Assembly (NCBI RefSeq): GCF_002217795.2
Contig: NZ_AP018823.1
Location: forward strand, 3,906,001-3,970,000
Direction: 5' to 3'
Origin: Aquitalea magnusonii
GTDB lineage: Bacteria > Pseudomonadota > Gammaproteobacteria > Burkholderiales > Chromobacteriaceae
DNA length: 64,000 nt
The notes beneath the pieces are model-generated. The model ran no database searches. It was not told the origin of the DNA and worked only from the letters and a program-made list of their open reading frames with translations. The position numbers and the translations under genes are program-made. Below are positions 34,952 to 43,210 of this stretch, piece after piece (the first letter of the stretch is position 1; each line of letters starts with the position of its first letter).

Positions 34952-35848
34952 ACTTCGTTCGCTCACTTGCTTGAAACTGCACGGGAAAGTTTCTGTCGCG
35001 GCACATTATATGTGGTGGCCACTCCCATTGGAAACCTAGGAGATGTTACCGCACGTGCGCTGGCGGCCTTTGGCGCGGCCGACGTGGTATGCGCCGAAGA
35101 CACCCGCGTCACCGGCAGCCTGCTGACCGCCTACGGCATTCACGCCAACAAGCTGGTGAGCCTGCGTGAGCACAACGAACGCAGCATGGCCGAACAAGTC
35201 ATCCGCTGGCTGGCGGAAGGGCAGATTGTGGTGCAGGTATCCGATGCCGGCACCCCGGCGGTATCCGACCCCGGCGCGCGGCTGGTGGAAGCCGTGCGCG
35301 CCGCCGGCCATCCGGTACGCCCCATCCCCGGCGTATCCGCCGTCATCACCGCCCTGTCCGCCAGCGGCTTTACCAGCAATGCCTTCCTGTTTCACGGCTT
35401 TTTGCCGCCCAAAAGCGGCGAACGCCGCCGTACCTTGCAGCAATGGCTGAGCGCCGACCACCTGGTGGTGTGCTACGAAGCACCGCACCGCATTGTGGAC
35501 ACCCTGCAGGACATCGTGGCCGAACTGGGGCCGGACCGCCGCCTGATGCTGGCGCGCGAACTGACCAAAACCTTTGAAACCTTTCACAGCCTGCCTGCCG
35601 GTGAACTGCTGGAATGGGTAAAAGCCGACAGCAACCAGCAGCGCGGCGAAATCGTGCTCATCATCGACGCCGCCCCGCAAGCGGAAGACAAGGCCGGTTT
35701 GCCGGAAGAAGCCATCCGGGTGATAAACATCCTCAGCGCCGACCTGCCAATGAAACAAGCCTCCACCCTGGCCGCGCAAATTACCGGTGCCAACCGCAAG
35801 CTGCTGTATGACCATGCGCTGAAAATGAAAAAGGACGCCGGGGAGTGA
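34946..35848 (+). CDS. rsmI: 16S rRNA (cytidine1402-2'-O)-methyltransferase
   Basis: The enzyme core starts GTLYVVATPIGNLGDVTARA and continues with AEDTRVTGSLL, VQVSDAGTPAVSDPGARLV, IPGVSAVITALSASG, FHGFLPPKSGERRRTL, LARELTKTFETFHS and RGEIVLIID, all typical of the tetrapyrrole-methylase-fold RsmI. The frame is open far upstream inside lpoA on the other strand, but that part is not homologous. No ATG lies close. TTG at 34946 has GCGGAG six bases upstream and gives 300 residues; TTG at 34967 gives 293, closer to the family (E. coli 286). It is divergent from lpoA with the 5' ends overlapping. Confidence 0.88.
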   Translation: MHTSFAHLLETARESFCRGTLYVVATPIGNLGDVTARALAAFGAADVVCAEDTRVTGSLLTAYGIHANKLVSLREHNERSMAEQVIRWLAEGQIVVQVSDAGTPAVSDPGARLVEAVRAAGHPVRPIPGVSAVITALSASGFTSNAFLFHGFLPPKSGERRRTLQQWLSADHLVVCYEAPHRIVDTLQDIVAELGPDRRLMLARELTKTFETFHSLPAGELLEWVKADSNQQRGEIVLIIDAAPQAEDKAGLPEEAIRVINILSADLPMKQASTLAAQITGANRKLLYDHALKMKKDAGE

Positions 35849-35893
35849 TTTACAAGCCACGGCAGATGGGATAGACTTGCCTCCTCTTGCGAT

Positions 35894-35978
35894 GCCCGGG
35901 TGGCGAAATCGGTAGACGCAGGGGATTCAAAATCCCCCGCCGCAAGGTGTGTCGGTTCGAGTCCGACCCCGGGCACCA
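35894..35978 (+). tRNA. tRNA-Leu (anticodon CAA)
   Basis: The 85-base gene folds into a class II tRNA. GCCCGGG at the 5' end pairs with CCCGGGC, and the anticodon stem GGGGA/TCCCC holds the loop TTCAAAA with anticodon CAA at 35928-35930. A variable arm (CGCCGCAAGGTG region), the T arm GTCGG-TTCGAGT-CCGAC and an encoded CCA follow. It has the same isoacceptor as E. coli leuX, the attachment site of phage P4. An accessory region with P4-like immunity follows here. Confidence 0.95.
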
Positions 35979-36017
35979 AGTCCTTAGCAGATAAGGATTA
36001 CAGCAAGAATCAAAAAC

Positions 36018-36039
36018 AGCGCCGCAAGGCGCTTTTTTG
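36018..36039 (+). terminator. Intrinsic terminator after tRNA-Leu
   Basis: AGCGCC-GCAA-GGCGCT with a GNRA-like loop and a run of T after it. A 29-base block containing this hairpin recurs with one mismatch at 36858-36886. Confidence 0.9.
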
Positions 36040-36142
36040 TTGCCCAAATCCCGCCATGGAACACTGGCGGGACACTAGCGCAACACAGCACAAACCGGCA
36101 GGCTCAGCCCGCAGCCATGCCGTGCCACACCCTCCCCCGGTA

Positions 36143-36171
36143 TTGACAAGCCCGCCCCGCCAACCAACAAT
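36143..36171 (+). promoter_or_regulatory. Promoter of the C4/CI-like immunity locus
   Basis: A perfect TTGACA (36143-36148) is followed after exactly 17 bases by AACAAT (36166-36171, four of six consensus positions). Transcription would start near 36178 and run through the upstream target, the antisense RNA and the leader ORF, as in P4 and P1 immunity operons. Confidence 0.6.
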
Positions 36172-36230
36172 TGCCGCGTGCTGTTCAATAGCGGCACCGG
36201 GAATGCAAGCCCGAAAGACATAGGCGGACA

Positions 36231-36250
36231 GCCGCTTTGCGGCATTTTTT
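36231..36250 (+). terminator. Short attenuator-like terminator before the antisense RNA
   Basis: GCCGC-TTT-GCGGC followed by ATTTTTT forms a compact terminator between the upstream complementary target (36204-36224) and the C4-like RNA. Pairing of the target with the antisense RNA could change its folding; this regulatory link is inference. Confidence 0.55.
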
Positions 36251-36284
36251 ACGTCCGTCGAACACCATTGGTACGTCCTTTTTC

Positions 36285-36366
36285 TATGGCGGGCCGTGGT
36301 GGGGAGCCTTCGGGCTGCCGGTTCCTATGTCCCGGTCTTGCAAACCCTGCCATGTGCCTGCCACCC
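36285..36366 (+). ncRNA. C4 / CI-type phage antisense RNA (P1- and P4-like immunity)
   Basis: The segment folds like phage C4 antisense RNA. An 8-bp closing stem, TGGCGGGC (36287-36294) with GCCTGCCA (36356-36363), encloses a hairpin AGCC-TTCG-GGCT (36305-36316) and an exposed region holding TCCTATGTC (36323-36331) and CTTGCAA (36337-36343). These two antisense motifs are complementary, in the correct order, to two flanking sites. The upstream site has TGCAAG 36204-36209 and GACATAGG 36217-36224. The downstream site has TTGCAAG 36370-36376 and GACATAGGA 36397-36405, the latter covering the Shine-Dalgarno of the leader ORF. That seqA-seqB-seqC layout is that of P4 immunity. A frame reading through this RNA resembles the Ash-type proteins annotated over such loci. 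Confidence 0.7.
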
Positions 36367-36413
36367 CGATTGCAAGCGGGGTGCGGGTCTAAATCCGACA
36401 TAGGAGGCATACC

Positions 36414-36509
36414 ATGCCTGGCATCTCCCGCGCCCAGTTGCGCCCTCCCCCCGCGATTGTCATTGCCGTTACCGCCCCGCCATCCTTTAGCAAGGAGGCC
36501 CGCGCATGA
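36414..36509 (+). CDS. 31-residue leader ORF coupled to the downstream gene
   Basis: ATG at 36414 has AGGAGG six bases upstream (36402-36407), inside the region complementary to the C4-like RNA. The 31-residue product is rich in Pro and Ala and ends at a TGA that overlaps the ATG of the 114-residue gene (ATGA). In phage P1, C4 RNA blocks a small ORF whose translation opens the downstream gene; this ORF has the same position. I recognise no domain. It may act only as a translated leader. Confidence 0.55.
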   Translation: MPGISRAQLRPPPAIVIAVTAPPSFSKEARA

Positions 36510-36850
36510 ACACCCAGCAACCTCTCAGCCAGCCCGCTCCCGCCGCCTATCTGGCGCTGGCCACCTTTCAAGACCAACTCGGCCGCCTGCAAACCCTGAC
36601 CAGCCTGCCGGAACATGCCGCGCTGCGCGAACCCATCAGCCAGCTGACCCGCCTGAGCCAGACCATCCAGCACACCATTGCCGATGGCATCTGCACGCTG
36701 GACCGTGCCGCTGACTGCATGCAATGCCTGCTTGATCTGCTGTACCACGCCGAGGACATGCCGCTGGCAGCCAACCAACTGGCCGGGCTGCTGACCCCGC
36801 TGCATCAGCAAATCAGCCTCGCCCGCACCGATATCGGCCAACTCCTGTAA
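36506..36850 (+). CDS. Unknown 114-residue helical protein under antisense-RNA control
   Basis: A strong AAGGAGG lies ten bases upstream, and the start overlaps the leader ORF stop, so it is a real gene. The product is predicted all-helical, with leucine/alanine/glutamine heptads (FQDQLGRLQTLTSL, HAALREPISQLTRLSQTIQ, LAGLLTPLHQQISLARTDI) and two cysteines in ADCMQCLLDLL. There is no signal peptide or membrane helix. It may belong to a small family limited to Neisseriales and Burkholderiales (DUF1484-like), but I cannot confirm this. Its codon use and GC are like the host, unlike the AT-rich island downstream. Its place after a P4/P1-like immunity module suggests an anti-repressor, cell-division inhibitor or toxin-like role; this is inference. 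Confidence 0.75.
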   Translation: MNTQQPLSQPAPAAYLALATFQDQLGRLQTLTSLPEHAALREPISQLTRLSQTIQHTIADGICTLDRAADCMQCLLDLLYHAEDMPLAANQLAGLLTPLHQQISLARTDIGQLL

Positions 36851-36857
36851 GTGGCAG

Positions 36858-36882
36858 ACAGCGCCGCAAGGCGCTGTTTTGT
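36858..36882 (+). terminator. Intrinsic terminator ending the immunity unit
   Basis: ACAGCGCC-GCAA-GGCGCTGT followed by TTTGTTG. It is a near-copy of the tRNA terminator 840 bases upstream. Confidence 0.88.
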
Positions 36883-36886
36883 TGCC

Positions 36887-37452
36887 TGTCGCACGGCCCG
36901 GCGATGGCTAGATCATTAGCGCCGTCACACCACCACGGCCCCATAACGCCGTCAGCCCAGCCTGTTGGTGGTTTCCTGAGCCAAGTTGGCGGAAAATTGA
37001 CGAATCCACTAACAAATTAATCATTAAAAATCATAAACTTAGATGAGAACTAGGGAAGGTCTGATTAAATGGCTGATTTCAATCTTGATGTTCCATAAAT
37101 CATTGATTTTATTGTGTAAATATTTTTACACCTGGACTTGTTCAGACCATTCCTAGAGGATTTGACGGCATAGCAGCGCTTTTTGCTACATACTTAGGAG
37201 AAAAATTACGCAACTATGAAGGCACTATTCATTTTTGTCAGAACCACAGCCATAATACACACATGCTAAATCATTTCATTTTCCGATTTTGTAATAAATT
37301 AACTCAATAATTAGTTATCTAATTTATCAACGCTAATTAATTAGCAGAGTTAAACGTCACTTTCAATTAAATAGTTTGTAAATTGCACGATAAATCAGCA
37401 CCATTCATCAGACCAAATAAATATATACAACTGAATTGCCGAAAGAGAATTT
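36887..37452. other. AT-rich intergenic region before the phosphatase-kinase operon
   Basis: About 560 bases with falling GC content mark the left border of the AT-rich island. It holds a 99-bp MITE-like element and an apparent promoter region rich in A and T before 37453. No gene is supported; the only open frames are under 20 codons. Confidence 0.5.
37054..37152. mobile_element. 99-bp MITE-like element with IS5-type ends
   Basis: Terminal inverted repeats GGAAGGTCTGA (left) and TCAGACCATTC (right) match at 9 of 11 positions and are flanked by a direct CTAG duplication (37050-37053 and 37153-37156). YTAR target duplications are typical of IS5-family elements. The inside has no coding potential and holds the palindrome GTGTAAATATTTTTACAC. 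No full-length parent element lies in the window. Confidence 0.55.
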
Positions 37453-38604
37453 ATGCTAAAAAAAGTCCTTGAGAAATGGCTAATGCGGCAAACACCAGAT
37501 CGTGGGAAAGCTGCAATGGATGATTATTCAGTCTTTTTTTCCACAGATATTGGACTGAGACGAACTGAAAATCAAGATCAGGTGGCTGCTATACGAGTTA
37601 ACGTCAATCCATCGATTGGCCACTCTTTTATCATCATTGCACTTTCTGATGGCATGGGAGGCATGAGGGATGGTAAGTTGTGTGCAAATAAGGCGATTGC
37701 TAGTTTCTTTTATTCTGCAATTAGCAATAGACACTTAGATGCTGAAAAGCGATTAGAACTTGCTGCTCACGCTGCGAATAACGCTGTTGGGGAGTTATTC
37801 AATGGCACTGGAGGTGCTACTTTATCGGTTGTTTGCATTGGTGGTGATAATAAAATTAACACATTGAATGTAGGTGACAGCCGCATATATGCTACTGTTG
37901 AAAAACCCAACAGAGAAGTGATTAGACTAACTGTTGATGACTCACTGGAGGAGTTAGTTGGTGGTCATGGGAAAGAATTATTGCAATTTATAGGCATGGG
38001 AGAAGGGATCAAGCCACATATTAACAATATTCATTCTGATGTAAAAAATATAGTTATTACCTCAGATGGAATTCACTATGTCGACCAAGGTACATTTTAT
38101 AAAATTTTGATCAACTCAAATACCCCTTCCGTTGCAATAGATAGACTATCGGCATTGGCTAGATGGTGTGGATCTCCTGATAATGCATCATTATCTATTG
38201 TGGATGTTGGTGCTGCCCTTAACTCTCTGCAGGATATTAGAGATGCTGGCGTGGAAATTGCAGATTCATTTACGTCAACAAATTTCCTATGGATAAGGGA
38301 GAGCTCTCTTGATGAGGAGATAGCTAAGAAAAATGAAAATTTTCCTTACAAGAGAGCTGACATTTTAGATAAAAATTGCGAAGACTGTGAAGTTGATCCT
38401 AGGCATGTTGACGCGAATGAAAATCACGATGACGAAGTTAAGAATAATATCCCAACCGAGAAAAAAGCCGATCACGATTCAGGTCCTAAACAATCACCAC
38501 AAAAAAGAAAAAGAAAGCCAAGGGCACCTAAAGAAAAAAAGGTTGAGAGCTCAAACCCACAATTATTGATTGAAATTGACACCAAACTAATTTCGGACAA
38601 TTAA
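37453..38604 (+). CDS. PP2C-type serine/threonine phosphatase of the AT-rich island
   Basis: The 383-residue protein has a PP2C domain at about residues 25-265 with all metal-binding motifs: RRTENQD (Asp42), ALSDGMGGMRDG (Asp66), LNVGDSRIYA, ITSDGIHYVD and DNASLSIVD. There is no membrane helix. After residue 290 follows an acidic, disordered stretch and a strongly basic C-terminal tail (KRKRKPRAPKEKK), which may bind nucleic acid or a partner. It is followed immediately (TAA then ATG) by a Ser/Thr kinase, and then by a second kinase, so phosphatase and kinases are made together. Base composition is far lower in GC than the neighbours, a sign of transfer. The substrate is unknown. Confidence 0.85.
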   Translation: MLKKVLEKWLMRQTPDRGKAAMDDYSVFFSTDIGLRRTENQDQVAAIRVNVNPSIGHSFIIIALSDGMGGMRDGKLCANKAIASFFYSAISNRHLDAEKRLELAAHAANNAVGELFNGTGGATLSVVCIGGDNKINTLNVGDSRIYATVEKPNREVIRLTVDDSLEELVGGHGKELLQFIGMGEGIKPHINNIHSDVKNIVITSDGIHYVDQGTFYKILINSNTPSVAIDRLSALARWCGSPDNASLSIVDVGAALNSLQDIRDAGVEIADSFTSTNFLWIRESSLDEEIAKKNENFPYKRADILDKNCEDCEVDPRHVDANENHDDEVKNNIPTEKKADHDSGPKQSPQKRKRKPRAPKEKKVESSNPQLLIEIDTKLISDN

Positions 38605-39657
38605 ATGACTGCAAAAGTTAGATATCACATACACAGGCCAATGGATGGCGGCGGTATGGGAGATATATTTATTGGAAGTGATATCCATCTGAATAGAGAA
38701 GTTGTTTTTAAATTACTAAAAGACGGAGAGGATCAGCGACGTCTTATTGATGAGCAAAAAGCGTTAATGCGGTTGCGCTCAAAGCATGTTGTACAAATAT
38801 TTGACGTGATCTCAGTTACACAAGGAAGCGTCGCGAAAAAAGCAATTGTTCTTGAGTACATTAAGGGAACCACACTAAAGAATGGCTCCTACCATAAGGA
38901 TACCGTTTTCATTAAGGATATTTGGCAGATAGCATGCGGCCTGAAAGATATTCATAACTCAAATATTATTCATAGAGACATAAAGCCTAACAACATAAGA
39001 ATTGACAGAAATGGCGTTGTGAAGATTATTGACTTTGGCTTGGCACGCCCTAATGGTGATGAAGCTAAAACAGCTAGTATTATTGGCACTATTGGTTATA
39101 TGGCCCCTGAACTCTGGGGCGACGGCATGATTGGATTTGATAAATCAATTGATGTTTATGCTTTCGGAGTAATGGCACTACGATTGCTTGGAATTCCCCT
39201 CCCTTTGGAGCTTACCCAGCAGCCACCGAGGCCAAAAAATGATTTGGCAATCAAAAATGCACTTCACGGTCTCCCTAGTAAAATAATATCAATTATTAAT
39301 CAATGCATGGAGTATAACCCGGCGGATAGACCAGACATTTCATCTGTCGAGGAAATTCTTCGAAAGCATCTACTAGCAGGAAAGCATCGTGCACTATTAG
39401 TTTCTAAAAATGGAACTAATGAACTTAATGCGATGCATCGAATTGCAACCGTGAAGTATGGAAGTGGATGTTCAATTTCAATTGAGTACAATGATTTTAT
39501 TTTTGTTGTCAAACATATTCTTGGCGTTGTTTCGATAAATAACATTTATGCAAAAGTTGGAGATGCTTTACCTGGTTGTTGCGTACTAACTTTGCATGAT
39601 AGTAAGAAAAGAATGTTTGTGACATTTGACATATCTAATCCAGAGGTAATGCCGTAA
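38605..39657 (+). CDS. Hanks-type Ser/Thr protein kinase 1 of the island
   Basis: The 350-residue protein has an N-terminal kinase domain with the glycine loop DGGGMGDIF, Lys36 in VVFKLLK, the alpha-C glutamate Glu50, catalytic HRDIKPNN (Asp125), DFG at 143-145 and APE at 167-169, so it should be active. About 95 residues follow the kinase fold (from HRALLVSKNG) and match nothing I know. They contain small beta-like segments and two adjacent cysteines, and could sense a signal or substrate. No membrane segment is present, unlike typical PknB receptors. Start follows the phosphatase stop without a gap, and its stop overlaps the next start (TAATG). Confidence 0.85.
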   Translation: MTAKVRYHIHRPMDGGGMGDIFIGSDIHLNREVVFKLLKDGEDQRRLIDEQKALMRLRSKHVVQIFDVISVTQGSVAKKAIVLEYIKGTTLKNGSYHKDTVFIKDIWQIACGLKDIHNSNIIHRDIKPNNIRIDRNGVVKIIDFGLARPNGDEAKTASIIGTIGYMAPELWGDGMIGFDKSIDVYAFGVMALRLLGIPLPLELTQQPPRPKNDLAIKNALHGLPSKIISIINQCMEYNPADRPDISSVEEILRKHLLAGKHRALLVSKNGTNELNAMHRIATVKYGSGCSISIEYNDFIFVVKHILGVVSINNIYAKVGDALPGCCVLTLHDSKKRMFVTFDISNPEVMP

Positions 39658-40727
39658 TGATTGATAGAATCATAGCTGGGCGATATAAAATACTAAAACA
39701 TATCGGGCGTGGAGGTATGCAAGAAGTTTTCTTGGCCCATGATACTGAGCTAGATACCGAAGTTGCATTGAAAACACCTCAAGCAGGTCAGCAAAATCGA
39801 CGATTCCAAAAAAGTGCAATTATTTCTGCAAGAATAAACCATCATCATGTTGCAAAAACGTTAGATTACATTGATGAAAATGGAACTGTCTATCTGATTG
39901 AAGAGCTTATCAATGGTGAAACACTCTCTCAGAAATTAGATAGATTTGGATATTTTGATCCTCACTTTGCTGCAAAAATATTGCATCATATTGCGAAGGG
40001 TGTTAGCGCATCTCATCGAGAGGGTGTAATTCATCGAGATTTAAAGCCAAGCAATATTATGGTTAGTGCCGGTGTAGAACTGAGCAACTTAAAAATAACT
40101 GATTTTGGAATAGCGACACTTACTGAAGAGGTGTTTGAAGAGGCTGCAAAAGCGGGCGACTTAACTCAGTCCACATCTGGAACTATTAAGGGGGCATTGC
40201 CATTCATGGCTCCTGAGATGATGTTCAGACAGTCTGACCAAAAAATACTACCTTCTGTTGATATATGGTCTGTAGGTGCAATGATGTTTCAGCTTTTGAC
40301 TGGTGATTATCCATTTGGGGTTTATTTAGAGGCAGCCGTTAATGTAAAAAATAAGGAACGAAAGCCTTGGCCTAAATTCATGACTAGAAATCCTCAATTT
40401 TCTCTGCTGTCTACTGAGCTTCAAGCTATTGTTGAAAGATGTTTAGATTATAATCCAGAGTCTAGATTGACGGCAGATCAATTAGTCGAGCTTTGTGATA
40501 ATCTATGCTACATTACTGCAGAACGAGAAGAGGGTGTTGTTACTAACTTGATTCAAAATGGCTACAGTGGATTTGCTACCAATGAATCAAGTGATGTTTT
40601 CTTTAGCATGGAAAGTGTTTATGGCTTGAGGGTACCGGACACCGAGAAGAATAGTCTAATCTGCTATTCTAGTTTTTCAGGCAGCCCAAAAAATAGAGCA
40701 CATCCTATTTTTGTGTTGAAAAAGTGA
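39657..40727 (+). CDS. Hanks-type Ser/Thr protein kinase 2 of the island
   Basis: The 356-residue protein has the glycine loop IGRGGMQEVFLAHD, Lys39 in VALKTP, HRDLKPSNIM (Asp128), DFG 149-151 and PEMM in place of a fuller APE context (FMAPEMM). The position usually held by the alpha-C glutamate reads FQKSA, with serine 53, so the salt bridge to Lys39 seems to be lost or supplied by another residue; activity may need a partner. A 70-residue tail with no known domain follows. It is the last gene of the PP2C-kinase-kinase operon; a shared convergent terminator lies 190 bases downstream. Cytoplasmic, by absence of membrane segments. Confidence 0.85.
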   Translation: MIDRIIAGRYKILKHIGRGGMQEVFLAHDTELDTEVALKTPQAGQQNRRFQKSAIISARINHHHVAKTLDYIDENGTVYLIEELINGETLSQKLDRFGYFDPHFAAKILHHIAKGVSASHREGVIHRDLKPSNIMVSAGVELSNLKITDFGIATLTEEVFEEAAKAGDLTQSTSGTIKGALPFMAPEMMFRQSDQKILPSVDIWSVGAMMFQLLTGDYPFGVYLEAAVNVKNKERKPWPKFMTRNPQFSLLSTELQAIVERCLDYNPESRLTADQLVELCDNLCYITAEREEGVVTNLIQNGYSGFATNESSDVFFSMESVYGLRVPDTEKNSLICYSSFSGSPKNRAHPIFVLKK

Positions 40728-40914
40728 AATATACTTCACTATTAATACTTCTATCCCTGTCGGGGATCTGGCTTGTACCGTCCTCCCACAGGGATCTAGA
40801 CTTCAGGCCAAACTGGGTTTGCTGTGTATAAATTTGTGCATCGACCAAGTTCCCACAAACCAGAAATCACCGTCTGTATTGGCTTTCCAGCCACACTTCG
40901 ATAAAGACCCCAAA

Positions 40915-40961
40915 CAACAAAACACCCCCGCTCCATCTGCATGGCCGGGGGTGTTTTGTTG
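40915..40961. terminator. Bidirectional terminator between island and TonB receptor
   Basis: A perfect 16-bp stem (40915-40930 with 40946-40961) contains A/T runs in both arms and a 15-base loop, suitable for stopping both converging transcripts. It sits at the right edge of the AT-rich island, so it may be native to the receptor gene. Confidence 0.88.
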
Positions 40962-40993
40962 TGGCCGCCATCTGGCGGGCGTGTCAGGCGGGG

Positions 40994-43210
40994 TCAGAAC
41001 TTGAGGTTGAAGGCGGTGTACAGCGAGCGGGCGGGGCCGGCCACGCCTACGCCCCAGGGGATGCCGGCGCGGCTCATGGTCATGCCCTGGCCGGTGTAGG
41101 CACCACCCAGCGGCAGGGTGTAGAAGTGGTTGAATACGTTGTCGATGCCCACGTCCACGCTGAACCGTTTGTTTTCATAGCGGGTGCGCAGGTTGAACAG
41201 GCTGTAGCCGGGGGTTTTGACTTCGTTGCGCACGGCGGAGACGTCCGTTTTGGCGCGGACGGCCTGCCATTCGGCGGTGCTGGTCCACTGCCCCAGCGTG
41301 TTTACCAGCGCCAGTTTGGCGTTGAGCGGCATGATGTTGTACAGATTGTCGCCAGTGCTGAGGTTTTCGCCACGGGTGTAGCTGAGCTGGGCGGTGGCAT
41401 CGAAGCGGCCGAAGCCGGTGGTTCTGGCCAGTTGCAGCTTGCCGCTGACGTCCATGCCGTATAGCTGGGCGTTCTGGTTGACGTATTGCAGCACCACATA
41501 GCCGGTGGTGGCGGTCTGGTTGTTGTTGGCCGTGCCGTAACGCTGGGCGTCGATGTAGTTTTCCACATAGCTGTAGTAGGGGCTGAGCTTGAATTGCCAG
41601 GCTTCGCCGTCGGCGGCGTGCCAGTTGGCGCTGCTGCTGAGGGTGTGGGCCACTTCCGGCTTGAGGTTGGCATTGCCGACATAGCCGTTGCCGTCTCCGG
41701 CAAAGTTGTTCATCACCGCGGCCATGGTGTTGCTGGACCAGGTGTAGCGCTCGTACAGATTGGGCGAGCGGGTTTTCTGCGCGTAGGCCAGTTCGTATTG
41801 CGCGTTGTCATCCGGGGTGAAGCGGGCCAGCGCGGACAGGTCGAGGTTGAGGTCGGTACGGGCGTGGTTTTGCGCGTTGAAGCTGGCGGCATCCGGCGCG
41901 TAGGAGACGTTGCTGTTGTAGCCCGCTACGCTGCCGGTGTTGCTTTTCACCTGGCTGAGCCGTGCGCCGATGATGCTGCGCCATTGTGCTGTCCAGTCCG
42001 CCTGCCATTCGGCAAAGGCGTCCACGCGGTCGCGGTTGCCGTCCTTGATGTTCCAGAAGGTGTTAGGGCCCATGCCTCCATTACCACCGGCAGCCGGCCA
42101 CCAGTCGTTCAGGCTGTAGCGCTGGACTTCGCTGCCCAGTTTCAGTTTGTCGCGCGCATTCAGGGCCAGATCGGCAGTCAGGCTGCCGCCCAGCGTGTGG
42201 CTGGCGGAATCCATCGGCATGCCATTGTGATAGATGCCGTAAACAGTTTGCTTGTCATCGCCAAAGTTCATGCTGTGGCGCACGTACTGGCTGTACAGGC
42301 GGGCATCCAGCTCGCCCCAGGCAAACTGGCCGTTGTAGTGCAGGTTCAGCTGGTCGCTGCTGTTGTCGGTCATGTCCATGCGCTGGTTGGCAAAGCCCTC
42401 ATAAGGCGTGCGTTGCACGCCCACTTTGGCTTCCAGCAATTGATCGTTATCGCGCCAGGCCAGGCCCAGTTGGTGGTTTTCGGTTTTGTAGGCGGTGGAG
42501 CCTACCGTTTTGCCATCCATCCAGGCGCGGCCGGTGGCGGCCAGGCCGGATTTCTTGAAATCGGCTGCGGCGTCGTAGTTGTTGCTGCGGGCGGTGGAGC
42601 CGGTGTAGTTGATGCTGACATGGTCGTTGGCCAGGGTGGCGCTGGCATTGGCTCCACGGCCATCGCCATTGCTGCGGTAGAACGCACCCACGTTGCCGGT
42701 CTGCAATATCTGGCCTGCTTCGGCAAATTGCGGCGCGGCGGAACGGGCCACAATCACCCCGCCGATATTGTCGCCCCCGGCACTGACCGGGGCGGCACCG
42801 TTATATACCTGCACGCTGTCCACCTGGCTGGCATCCATATAGGACAGCGGGGAATTCATGTGATTGGGGCAGGCAGCCACCAGGCTGGCACCGTCGGTTT
42901 TCACCAGCAGGCGGTCGTCGGCCAGGCCGCGCAGTACCGGCAGGCTGGAGAAGCCACCGGCGGCATGCAGATTGAGGCCGGGGATGTCCTGCAGCAGTTG
43001 GGCGCTGTCGCTGCTGCGGGCGGCTTGCGCGGCCAGTTGTGCCGGGCTGAGGCTGTTGCCATCGGCCTGGCTGTCGTGGCGGCTGCCAGTTACCACGACT
43101 TCGGGCAGTTGTACCAGTTGGGTGCTGCTGTCGGCGGCCTGTGCCATGCGGGGAAAGGCGGACAGGGCAAGGGTGACGGCCAGGACGGCCGGCTTGGCGT
43201 GCAATTGCAT
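40994..43210 (-). CDS. TonB-dependent outer-membrane receptor, possibly copper (OprC/NosA-like)
   Basis: From the ATG at 43210 the protein has 738 residues: a signal peptide (cleavage near MAQAADS), TonB box-like PEVVVTG, a plug domain and a beta-barrel ending in SLYTAFNLKF. The plug has CPNHM at residues 114-118, a CxxxM arrangement like the copper ligands of Pseudomonas OprC, and a later HNGMPM segment in the barrel might provide His/Met ligands. There is no STN domain, so no direct sigma signalling. A longer open frame upstream of the signal peptide is not used. The copper assignment is inferred from motif resemblance; zinc or another ligand remains possible. Confidence 0.75.
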   Translation of the reverse strand: MQLHAKPAVLAVTLALSAFPRMAQAADSSTQLVQLPEVVVTGSRHDSQADGNSLSPAQLAAQAARSSDSAQLLQDIPGLNLHAAGGFSSLPVLRGLADDRLLVKTDGASLVAACPNHMNSPLSYMDASQVDSVQVYNGAAPVSAGGDNIGGVIVARSAAPQFAEAGQILQTGNVGAFYRSNGDGRGANASATLANDHVSINYTGSTARSNNYDAAADFKKSGLAATGRAWMDGKTVGSTAYKTENHQLGLAWRDNDQLLEAKVGVQRTPYEGFANQRMDMTDNSSDQLNLHYNGQFAWGELDARLYSQYVRHSMNFGDDKQTVYGIYHNGMPMDSASHTLGGSLTADLALNARDKLKLGSEVQRYSLNDWWPAAGGNGGMGPNTFWNIKDGNRDRVDAFAEWQADWTAQWRSIIGARLSQVKSNTGSVAGYNSNVSYAPDAASFNAQNHARTDLNLDLSALARFTPDDNAQYELAYAQKTRSPNLYERYTWSSNTMAAVMNNFAGDGNGYVGNANLKPEVAHTLSSSANWHAADGEAWQFKLSPYYSYVENYIDAQRYGTANNNQTATTGYVVLQYVNQNAQLYGMDVSGKLQLARTTGFGRFDATAQLSYTRGENLSTGDNLYNIMPLNAKLALVNTLGQWTSTAEWQAVRAKTDVSAVRNEVKTPGYSLFNLRTRYENKRFSVDVGIDNVFNHFYTLPLGGAYTGQGMTMSRAGIPWGVGVAGPARSLYTAFNLKF

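Follow-up and report, generated by a model that had tools for sequence, protein, structure and literature searches.

A cassette beside the tRNA-Leu(CAA) gene of Aquitalea magnusonii most likely derives from a satellite element and employs a C4 antisense RNA to repress the gene for a regulator of the VioS family (DUF1484). The cassette is located in the 64,000-nucleotide stretch of DNA that was analyzed here (the window). The C4 fold, the complementarity between antisense segments and targets, their covariation, the distinct loops, the DUF1484 membership of the product and the satellite-type context in relatives are read directly from the sequences, and processing of the C4 RNA and repression at the window locus would follow the precedents of P1/P7, P4 and Gifsy-1.

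Organization of the cassette and its antisense RNA

All elements of the cassette are on the forward strand. The tRNA-Leu (CAA) gene at 35894-35975 was recognized by the Rfam tRNA model (56.8 bits) and by ARAGORN as Leu-caa on the same DNA (L007). The sigma-70-type promoter TTGACA-N17-AACAAT at 36143-36171, assigned by consensus match alone, is the single promoter-like site found by a consensus scan of positions 35900-37000, in which shuffled sequences averaged 0.4. A short leader RNA (36178-36249) follows that contains target 1 and has a terminator at its end. It resembles isrK RNA (RF01394) with a score of 35.5 bits, below the cut-off of 50, and is termed isrK-like on this basis. Target 1 consists of a b part, TGCAAG (36204-36209), and an a part, GACATAGG (36217-36224), and the intrinsic terminator (36231-36251) of a stem at 36231-36243 followed by a T run. 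The covariance search that the earlier note had proposed returned one match to the Rfam C4 model RF01695 in the window, at 36282-36368, scoring 63.1 bits where the cut-off is 45 (E 7e-10 within the window) and covering the full model, positions 1-87 of 87, which assigns the RNA to the C4 family. The antisense a' loop (36322-36331) and b' segment (36337-36343) were assigned within it by their pairing and covariation with the targets. Target 2 comprises a b part, TTGCAAG (36370-36376), and an a part, GACATAGGAG (36397-36406), that covers the Shine-Dalgarno sequence of a leader ORF of 31 codons (36414-36509). The leader, which by eye is similar to the initial half of the ~58-codon leaders that follow other C4 RNAs, overlaps the start of the 114-residue DUF1484 gene (36506-36850) by ATGA, with the gene start at 36506, both reading frames having been read from the sequence. 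The fold of the leader RNA has a z value of -3.3 and surpassed every one of 200 shuffles. Promoter, targets, terminator, C4 fold, antisense motifs, leader and overlap were located where the earlier note had placed them. The note also had the module end at its own terminator: a terminator-like hairpin, ACAGCGCC-GCAA-GGCGCTGT followed by TTTTG, can be read at 36858-36884, but is absent from the list produced by the consensus terminator scan.

Both antisense motifs proved complementary to both targets as claimed previously. Segment a' pairs 8/8 with target 1 (36324-36331 with 36217-36224) and forms 10 bp including one G-U with target 2 across the Shine-Dalgarno sequence (36322-36331 with 36397-36406), and segment b' pairs 6/6 with target 1 (36337-36342 with 36204-36209) and 7/7 with target 2 (36337-36343 with 36370-36376). 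The window copy therefore possesses the two antisense segments complementary to flanking targets that characterize RF01695.

Compensatory change between antisense segments and targets was assessed in 140 of 291 listed C4 loci that were extracted, of which 136 were parsed. Loop a' matched the target of its own locus over at least 7 nt on the downstream side in 94 and on the upstream side in 93 of the 136 loci, compared to 4.6% and 3.7% for the targets of other loci. For segment b' the corresponding values were 108 and 122 of 136, compared to 16.1% and 20.2%. No foreign target was strictly better for a' in 77 loci downstream and 81 upstream, a better one existing in 59 and 55, respectively; for b' none was strictly better in 52 and 98. 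When the 88 distinct loops were considered with one representative each, the observed mean was never reached in 2000 permutations in any of the four antisense/target comparisons, with 36 of the 88 lacking a 7-nt match downstream and 29 upstream. By these measures, antisense segments and targets change together across the parsed loci, the kind of change that the earlier note had proposed to look for in relatives, and together with the C4 match and the pairing this bears out the P4/P1-type antisense plan that the note had recognized. Antisense RNA control of the window cassette is well supported on these sequence grounds.

The earlier note described a module that stands alone. Instead, the genome of the window has nine C4 matches above the Rfam cut-off, with nine different loops. 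Six of these loops match their own target over at least 7 nt and three copies have no 7-nt match on either side, compared to 4 matches in 144 cross comparisons. The window loop matches its own targets over 9 and 8 nt and the targets of the other eight copies over at most 4 nt; in the reverse comparison, the copy at 3458332 has a loop with a 7-nt match near target 2 of the window. Similarly, 24 parsed copies in G070 have 24 loops, 19 of which match their own target, with 47 matches in 1104 cross comparisons. As cross-matches are few, the specificities as judged by loop matching are largely, although not perfectly, private to each cassette.

C4 RNAs, DUF1484 genes and satellite-type elements

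The 114-residue product belongs to DUF1484 (PF07363; 36.2 bits against a cut-off of 21.2), which is its sole Pfam match, and searches of PHROGs, NCBIfam and PADLOC gave none. A three-helix fold is predicted. The description of the gene as uncharacterized no longer holds, as VioS, a studied protein reported in PMC5339254, is a member of the same family. A search of 5.8 billion proteins yielded 10, and in a profile search 67 of the best 8000 candidates matched, many of them named as Chromobacterium proteins. Values of dN/dS among the 114-residue copies were 0.29-0.74, which denotes modest constraint.

DUF1484 is present in 24 of 61 genomes of the family, with 92 matches in total. Of the 92, 46 (in 23 genomes) have a listed C4 RNA on their own strand no more than 450 nt upstream, where ~0.05 are expected by chance; 39 of these 46 RNAs are above the Rfam cut-off. 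The same distance applied to the opposite strand gave none and to the downstream side gave one, and a listed C4 is within 2.5 kb of 70 of the 92 matches. Rescanning of seven family loci at E values up to 0.5 recovered a C4 RNA at L043, which already was counted as C4-led, and none at L038, L044, L045, L047, L049 and L057. In a draw across the order, DUF1484 was detected in 7 of 399 genomes. Outside the family, G365 is the single strong case, with two DUF1484 copies that both are C4-led (56.5 and 73.1 bits), and no C4 is near the weak cases in G086, G259 and G346 (21-23 bits). A phage or plasmid home for DUF1484 was rejected: the window protein gave no tblastn match in phages and C. subtsugae VioS none in plasmids. 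Among viral contigs, none of 29 stretches that matched by pattern was confirmed as DUF1484.

At least one C4 match was found in 35 of the 61 genomes searched, that of the window included, and 30 to 39 matches were found in each of four genomes (G036, 37; G061, 35; G064, 39; G070, 30) of genus g7, which is Chromobacterium as judged by shared sequences. A cargo scan was conducted on 82 proteins, namely the window gene and 81 first genes after C4 RNAs, with near-duplicates, genes of more than 300 residues and one further gene omitted. DUF1484 accounted for 17 proteins, Bro-N for seven, and AntA and SymE for one each, and up to eight of the C4-led proteins matched one PHROG anti-repressor family. 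These matches show that C4 RNAs in these bacteria serve classical anti-repressors as well as several families of small proteins. Several C4 RNAs in G070 lead either ~149-residue proteins that share RRRYK...LPFV or ~107-residue proteins. G015 has 13 C4 matches and seven LuxR-type matches with no match to DUF1484.

The tRNA-Leu(CAA) gene is an integration hot spot that is present in all 10 genomes of the genus, with integrase ORFs after it in G001 and G009. The C4 RNA and DUF1484 gene follow the tRNA gene directly in the genome of the window (G000), G003 and G007. In G005, ~0.2 kb including the start of an integrase ORF intervenes between tRNA gene and cassette. The two are separated in G001 by an integrase element together with a 34-bp repeat of the tRNA end (91% identity), and the DUF1484-like DNA of this genome gave no Pfam match. 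The site is without a cassette in G002, G004, G006 and G008. The element at this site in G009 consists of an integrase, a SIR2 protein, C4, a leader, DUF1484, a 115-residue ORF and a Toprim primase-like ORF, and the succession of C4, DUF1484 and Toprim ORF recurs in G032, G072 and G365. Another element in the genome of the window comprises an integrase, C4, a 58-codon leader, a DUF927 protein and AlpA. At the tRNA-Leu site, G000 and G005 share one loop and G003 and G007 another, and in each pair both targets have changed accordingly, with matches of 9 and 8 nt. The G001 loop represents a third specificity which matches 8 nt downstream and 4 nt upstream.

The window cassette is best read as the remnant of a P4-like satellite at tRNA-Leu(CAA), and the domesticated mobile-element unit suggested in the earlier note gains support from the G009 element and the Toprim gene. 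When five proteins of the G009 and G001 elements were compared by tblastn to positions 35601-41500, nothing was found beyond 26 residues of integrase ORF extension that lie on the tRNA gene. The C4 region gave three weak matches to Bordetella phages in blastn (73% identity over 47% of the query). No phage match was obtained for the 58-residue leader of L002, and of the 137 stretches of viral contigs that fitted its pattern none was confirmed. When viral contigs were scanned for the target pattern, 60 stretches were listed, but the pattern (17 fixed bases and a gap of 31 lengths) is too loose for them to count for or against superinfection immunity, and none was used.

The SIR2-domain protein of the G009 element (L260, 3800-5332) matches PADLOC model PDC-S25 with 592 bits. 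After the window cassette there are ~600 nt without a long ORF and then three ORFs at 37453-40727, one of 383 residues with no Pfam match and two for Ser/Thr protein kinases. Both kinase ORFs have matches to several kinase models of PADLOC that may be generic. The three ORFs possibly are defense cargo of the same integration site as the cassette.

The published vioS locus

VioS suppresses violacein production by antagonizing the quorum-sensing receptor CviR (PMC5339254), with which it interacts in the yeast two-hybrid system (PMC11019928). The window protein is ~24% identical to VioS and has the same predicted order of three helices. In VioS, DUF1484 is preceded by a fused N terminus that is leader-like, whereas leader and gene are separate in the window. 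With this organization and degree of identity, the window protein is not designated an orthologue, for which high identity and the fused N terminus would be expected.

Named genomes were scanned with an alignment for VioS-type genes, and of the 18 loci obtained 17 carry the label Chromobacterium and one the label Xenophilus. A C4 RNA ends ~50 nt before the start codon in 10 loci and is ~0.8 kb before the matched domain in two. The remaining six lack an upstream C4 and have instead a divergent 87-residue ORF, which is an HTH_3 (XRE-type) regulator in the two loci that were scanned (L162 and L038). The XRE-led arrangement without C4 occurs at L038, in a genome that presumably is C. violaceum ATCC 12472. 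C. subtsugae PRAA4-1 holds both kinds, XRE-led at L162 and C4-led at L168. The sequence GAGGGTTTTGCC before the ATG is common to XRE-led and C4-led vioS, with divergence just upstream. In a tree of 17 VioS-type genes, support was low in the VioS group (27-82%) and XRE-led and C4-led copies were not separated, so that the tree gives no basis for a history of the exchange. In C. subtsugae, the XRE-led vioS is followed at ~0.6 kb by a further C4 RNA (L162, 4009-4095), and in C. vaccinii MWU205 the reading frame of the XRE-led vioS (L169, 3001-3389) meets a stop after ~40 codons.

The vitR/vioS locus has been described with a divergent XRE-type regulator (PMC11019928). The strain in which vioS was defined, ATCC 31532, now is classed as C. 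subtsugae and its sequence has the accession CP142381 (PMC11237616), and the published primers were checked on the PRAA4-1 sequence as a stand-in. Primers vioSBF, vioSER, VioSBFw and VioSHR all are exact in L168. Among 19 loci checked with the promoter primers, the sole other fit with at most one mismatch was vioSER in L172 (one mismatch). Among six loci checked, VioSBFw has one mismatch in each of the five other than L168, and VioSHR fits none of these five within two mismatches. The promoter amplicon from L168 measures 195 bp, and the published length is 196 bp. L168, but not L162, contains the SnaBI site with which vioS and its promoter were excised. L168 shares 84% identity (90% similarity) with L038, and L162 shares 90% (93%); the vioS paper prints identities to CV_1055 of 85% and 90%. 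The knock-out primers KNvioSKF and KNvioSBR are exact in L162, L166 and L168 and do not discriminate. On the strength of the primer, amplicon, SnaBI and identity matches to L168, the genetically defined vioS very probably is the C4-led copy. The published vioS promoter fragment ends exactly at the start of the C4 leader, and the C4 loop and target 2 of L168 pair 9/9 across the Shine-Dalgarno sequence. Devescovi et al. describe their Tn5 insertions MB8 and MB11 as located in the promoter. Wild-type ATCC 31532 is pale (PMC5339254), which implies that vioS is expressed sufficiently to act and that the C4 RNA does not silence it fully.

A literature search found nothing that links C4 antisense RNA with Chromobacterium, or antisense RNA with vioS, and the term antisense is absent from the text of PMC5339254, PMC11019928 and PMC7240160. 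Within the literature searched, the link between C4 RNAs and DUF1484/VioS appears to be new. As far as the searches show, the same applies to the published vioS as a C4-led gene, to the satellite origin and to specificities that are largely private and lie next to the targets they match. It is suggested that the one name, vioS, covers two kinds of locus, one led by the XRE regulator and the other by C4. Tetracycline lowers the vioS transcript also in an airR mutant (PMC7240160). As leaders of the C4 type tie translation to transcription, the C4 leader may bear on this effect if the assay measured the C4-led copy.

Proposed mechanism, alternatives and implications

A single transcript from 36143 would include target 1, C4, target 2, the leader and the gene for the DUF1484 protein. 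A fraction would stop at the terminator as the isrK-like RNA, and the remainder would be processed to C4, which in this RNA family is expected as a product of ~77 nt, with an RNase P-type cut suggested by precedent: the C4 RNA of P1/P7 is processed by RNase P. Pairing of C4 with target 2 on the leader Shine-Dalgarno sequence would stop translation of the leader and, through the ATGA overlap, also that of the DUF1484 gene. This translational coupling is supported by the isrK-orf45-anrP locus of Gifsy-1 in Salmonella, in which AUGA coupling of leader and gene was demonstrated by mutation (PMC4825925). Rho-type termination may follow, as in P4, and target 1 may serve as a decoy or a second site. 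The loop would confer the largely private specificity of each cassette. The DUF1484 protein would act like VioS by binding a LuxR-type regulator.

That the protein works in the manner of VioS is probable, and the identity of its target as a LuxR-type regulator is a tentative assignment that falls a little short of an even prospect. A LuxR match is present in 23 of the 24 DUF1484 genomes compared to 14 of the 37 others, a pattern that tracks genus and is not independent evidence. The genome of the window has one Autoind_bind match, near G000:C1:3657455. No LuxI match was obtained in the 10 genomes of the genus, that of the window among them, and no control matched the LuxI family either. Against a LuxR-type target are the specificity of VioS, which does not block CepR (PMC5339254), the ~24% identity and the existence of a DUF1484 genome without a LuxR match (G019).

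The plan of the cassette is shared with c4 of P1/P7 and the CI RNA of P4 (seqA-CI-seqC), which as described in PMC5320573 and PMC4825925 have the C4 fold, two antisense segments, two flanking targets, a target over the Shine-Dalgarno sequence and an RNA cut from the transcript that it controls, the last feature being presumed in the window. P4/P1 immunity RNAs guard replication or anti-repressor genes of the phage or satellite. In contrast, the window RNA guards a DUF1484 gene that adjoins no gene for phage replication, and it is one of nine copies in its genome with different loops. The Gifsy-1 locus has in common with the window a short terminated leader RNA, an RNA of ~80 nt that is processed in Gifsy-1 and the AUGA overlap of the leader, but its downstream gene is an anti-repressor and the isrK score of the window is below the cut-off (PMC4825925). 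Proteobacteria and phages are known to have C4 RNAs (PMC2864571). The Group 1 C4-like sRNAs of Acinetobacter baumannii are multi-copy, chromosomal and apparently processed, and resemble those in the genome of the window in their many copies and differing specificity loops; their targets are discussed there as open (PMC5320573), whereas the window copy and most parsed loci here have matching targets on at least one flank. The primer-fitting copy of vioS likewise has an upstream C4 RNA with the plan seen in the window. Aqs1, a phage-encoded antagonist of LasR (PMC13043044), is by its description also a blocker of a LuxR-type protein carried by a mobile element and would be alike if DUF1484 proteins block generally.

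An alternative that deserves attention, although it is unlikely, is superinfection immunity, in which C4 would act in trans on satellites or phages that arrive with a matching specificity, the DUF1484 gene being a passenger. The C4 RNAs of P4 and P1 behave in this manner (PMC5320573), and at a single site the loop specificity differs from strain to strain, as immunity types also do, but the position of C4 directly upstream of 46 of 92 DUF1484 matches suggests that the gene is the business end. It is rather improbable that the cassette is a decaying remnant, intact by descent from the satellite and no longer regulating or mattering. The modest constraint on the protein, the lack of tblastn matches to the G009 and G001 element proteins beyond the 26 residues on the tRNA gene and the four of 10 genomes with no cassette at the site are as this explanation would predict. 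However, antisense segments and both targets remain matched in four genomes at the site despite the changed specificity, and the ORF, the leader overlap and the promoter all are intact.

The earlier note also considered a type I toxin-like unit, with a toxic small protein and C4 as the antitoxin RNA, which now seems very improbable. An RNA repressor does adjoin a small gene, and elsewhere one of the 82 scanned proteins, in G043 (L154, 1680-1934, reverse strand), is a C4-led, type I toxin-like member of the SymE family (60 bits against a cut-off of 29). Nevertheless, the window product is predicted to have three helices, has no toxin-family match in Pfam, NCBIfam or PADLOC, its DUF1484 match being the only one in these collections and PHROGs, and has a studied relative, VioS, that is a regulator.

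Repression of a VioS-family gene by a satellite-derived C4 RNA, the preferred reading, ties an immunity RNA of phage type to host quorum sensing. The 88 distinct loops in the sample constitute a natural collection of antisense-target pairs. The C4 leader would provide a direct, testable answer to Devescovi et al. for the strain behind the CV026 biosensor. More broadly, it is possible, though somewhat less likely than not, that P4-like satellites in these bacteria carry quorum-sensing antagonists under the control of their immunity RNA, such that a de-repressed or newly arrived satellite would mute the quorum sensing of its host. Remnants of these elements may have multiplied on chromosomes to sets of up to ~40 RNA-wired switches of largely private specificity, and the gene whose loss made CV026 may be among them.
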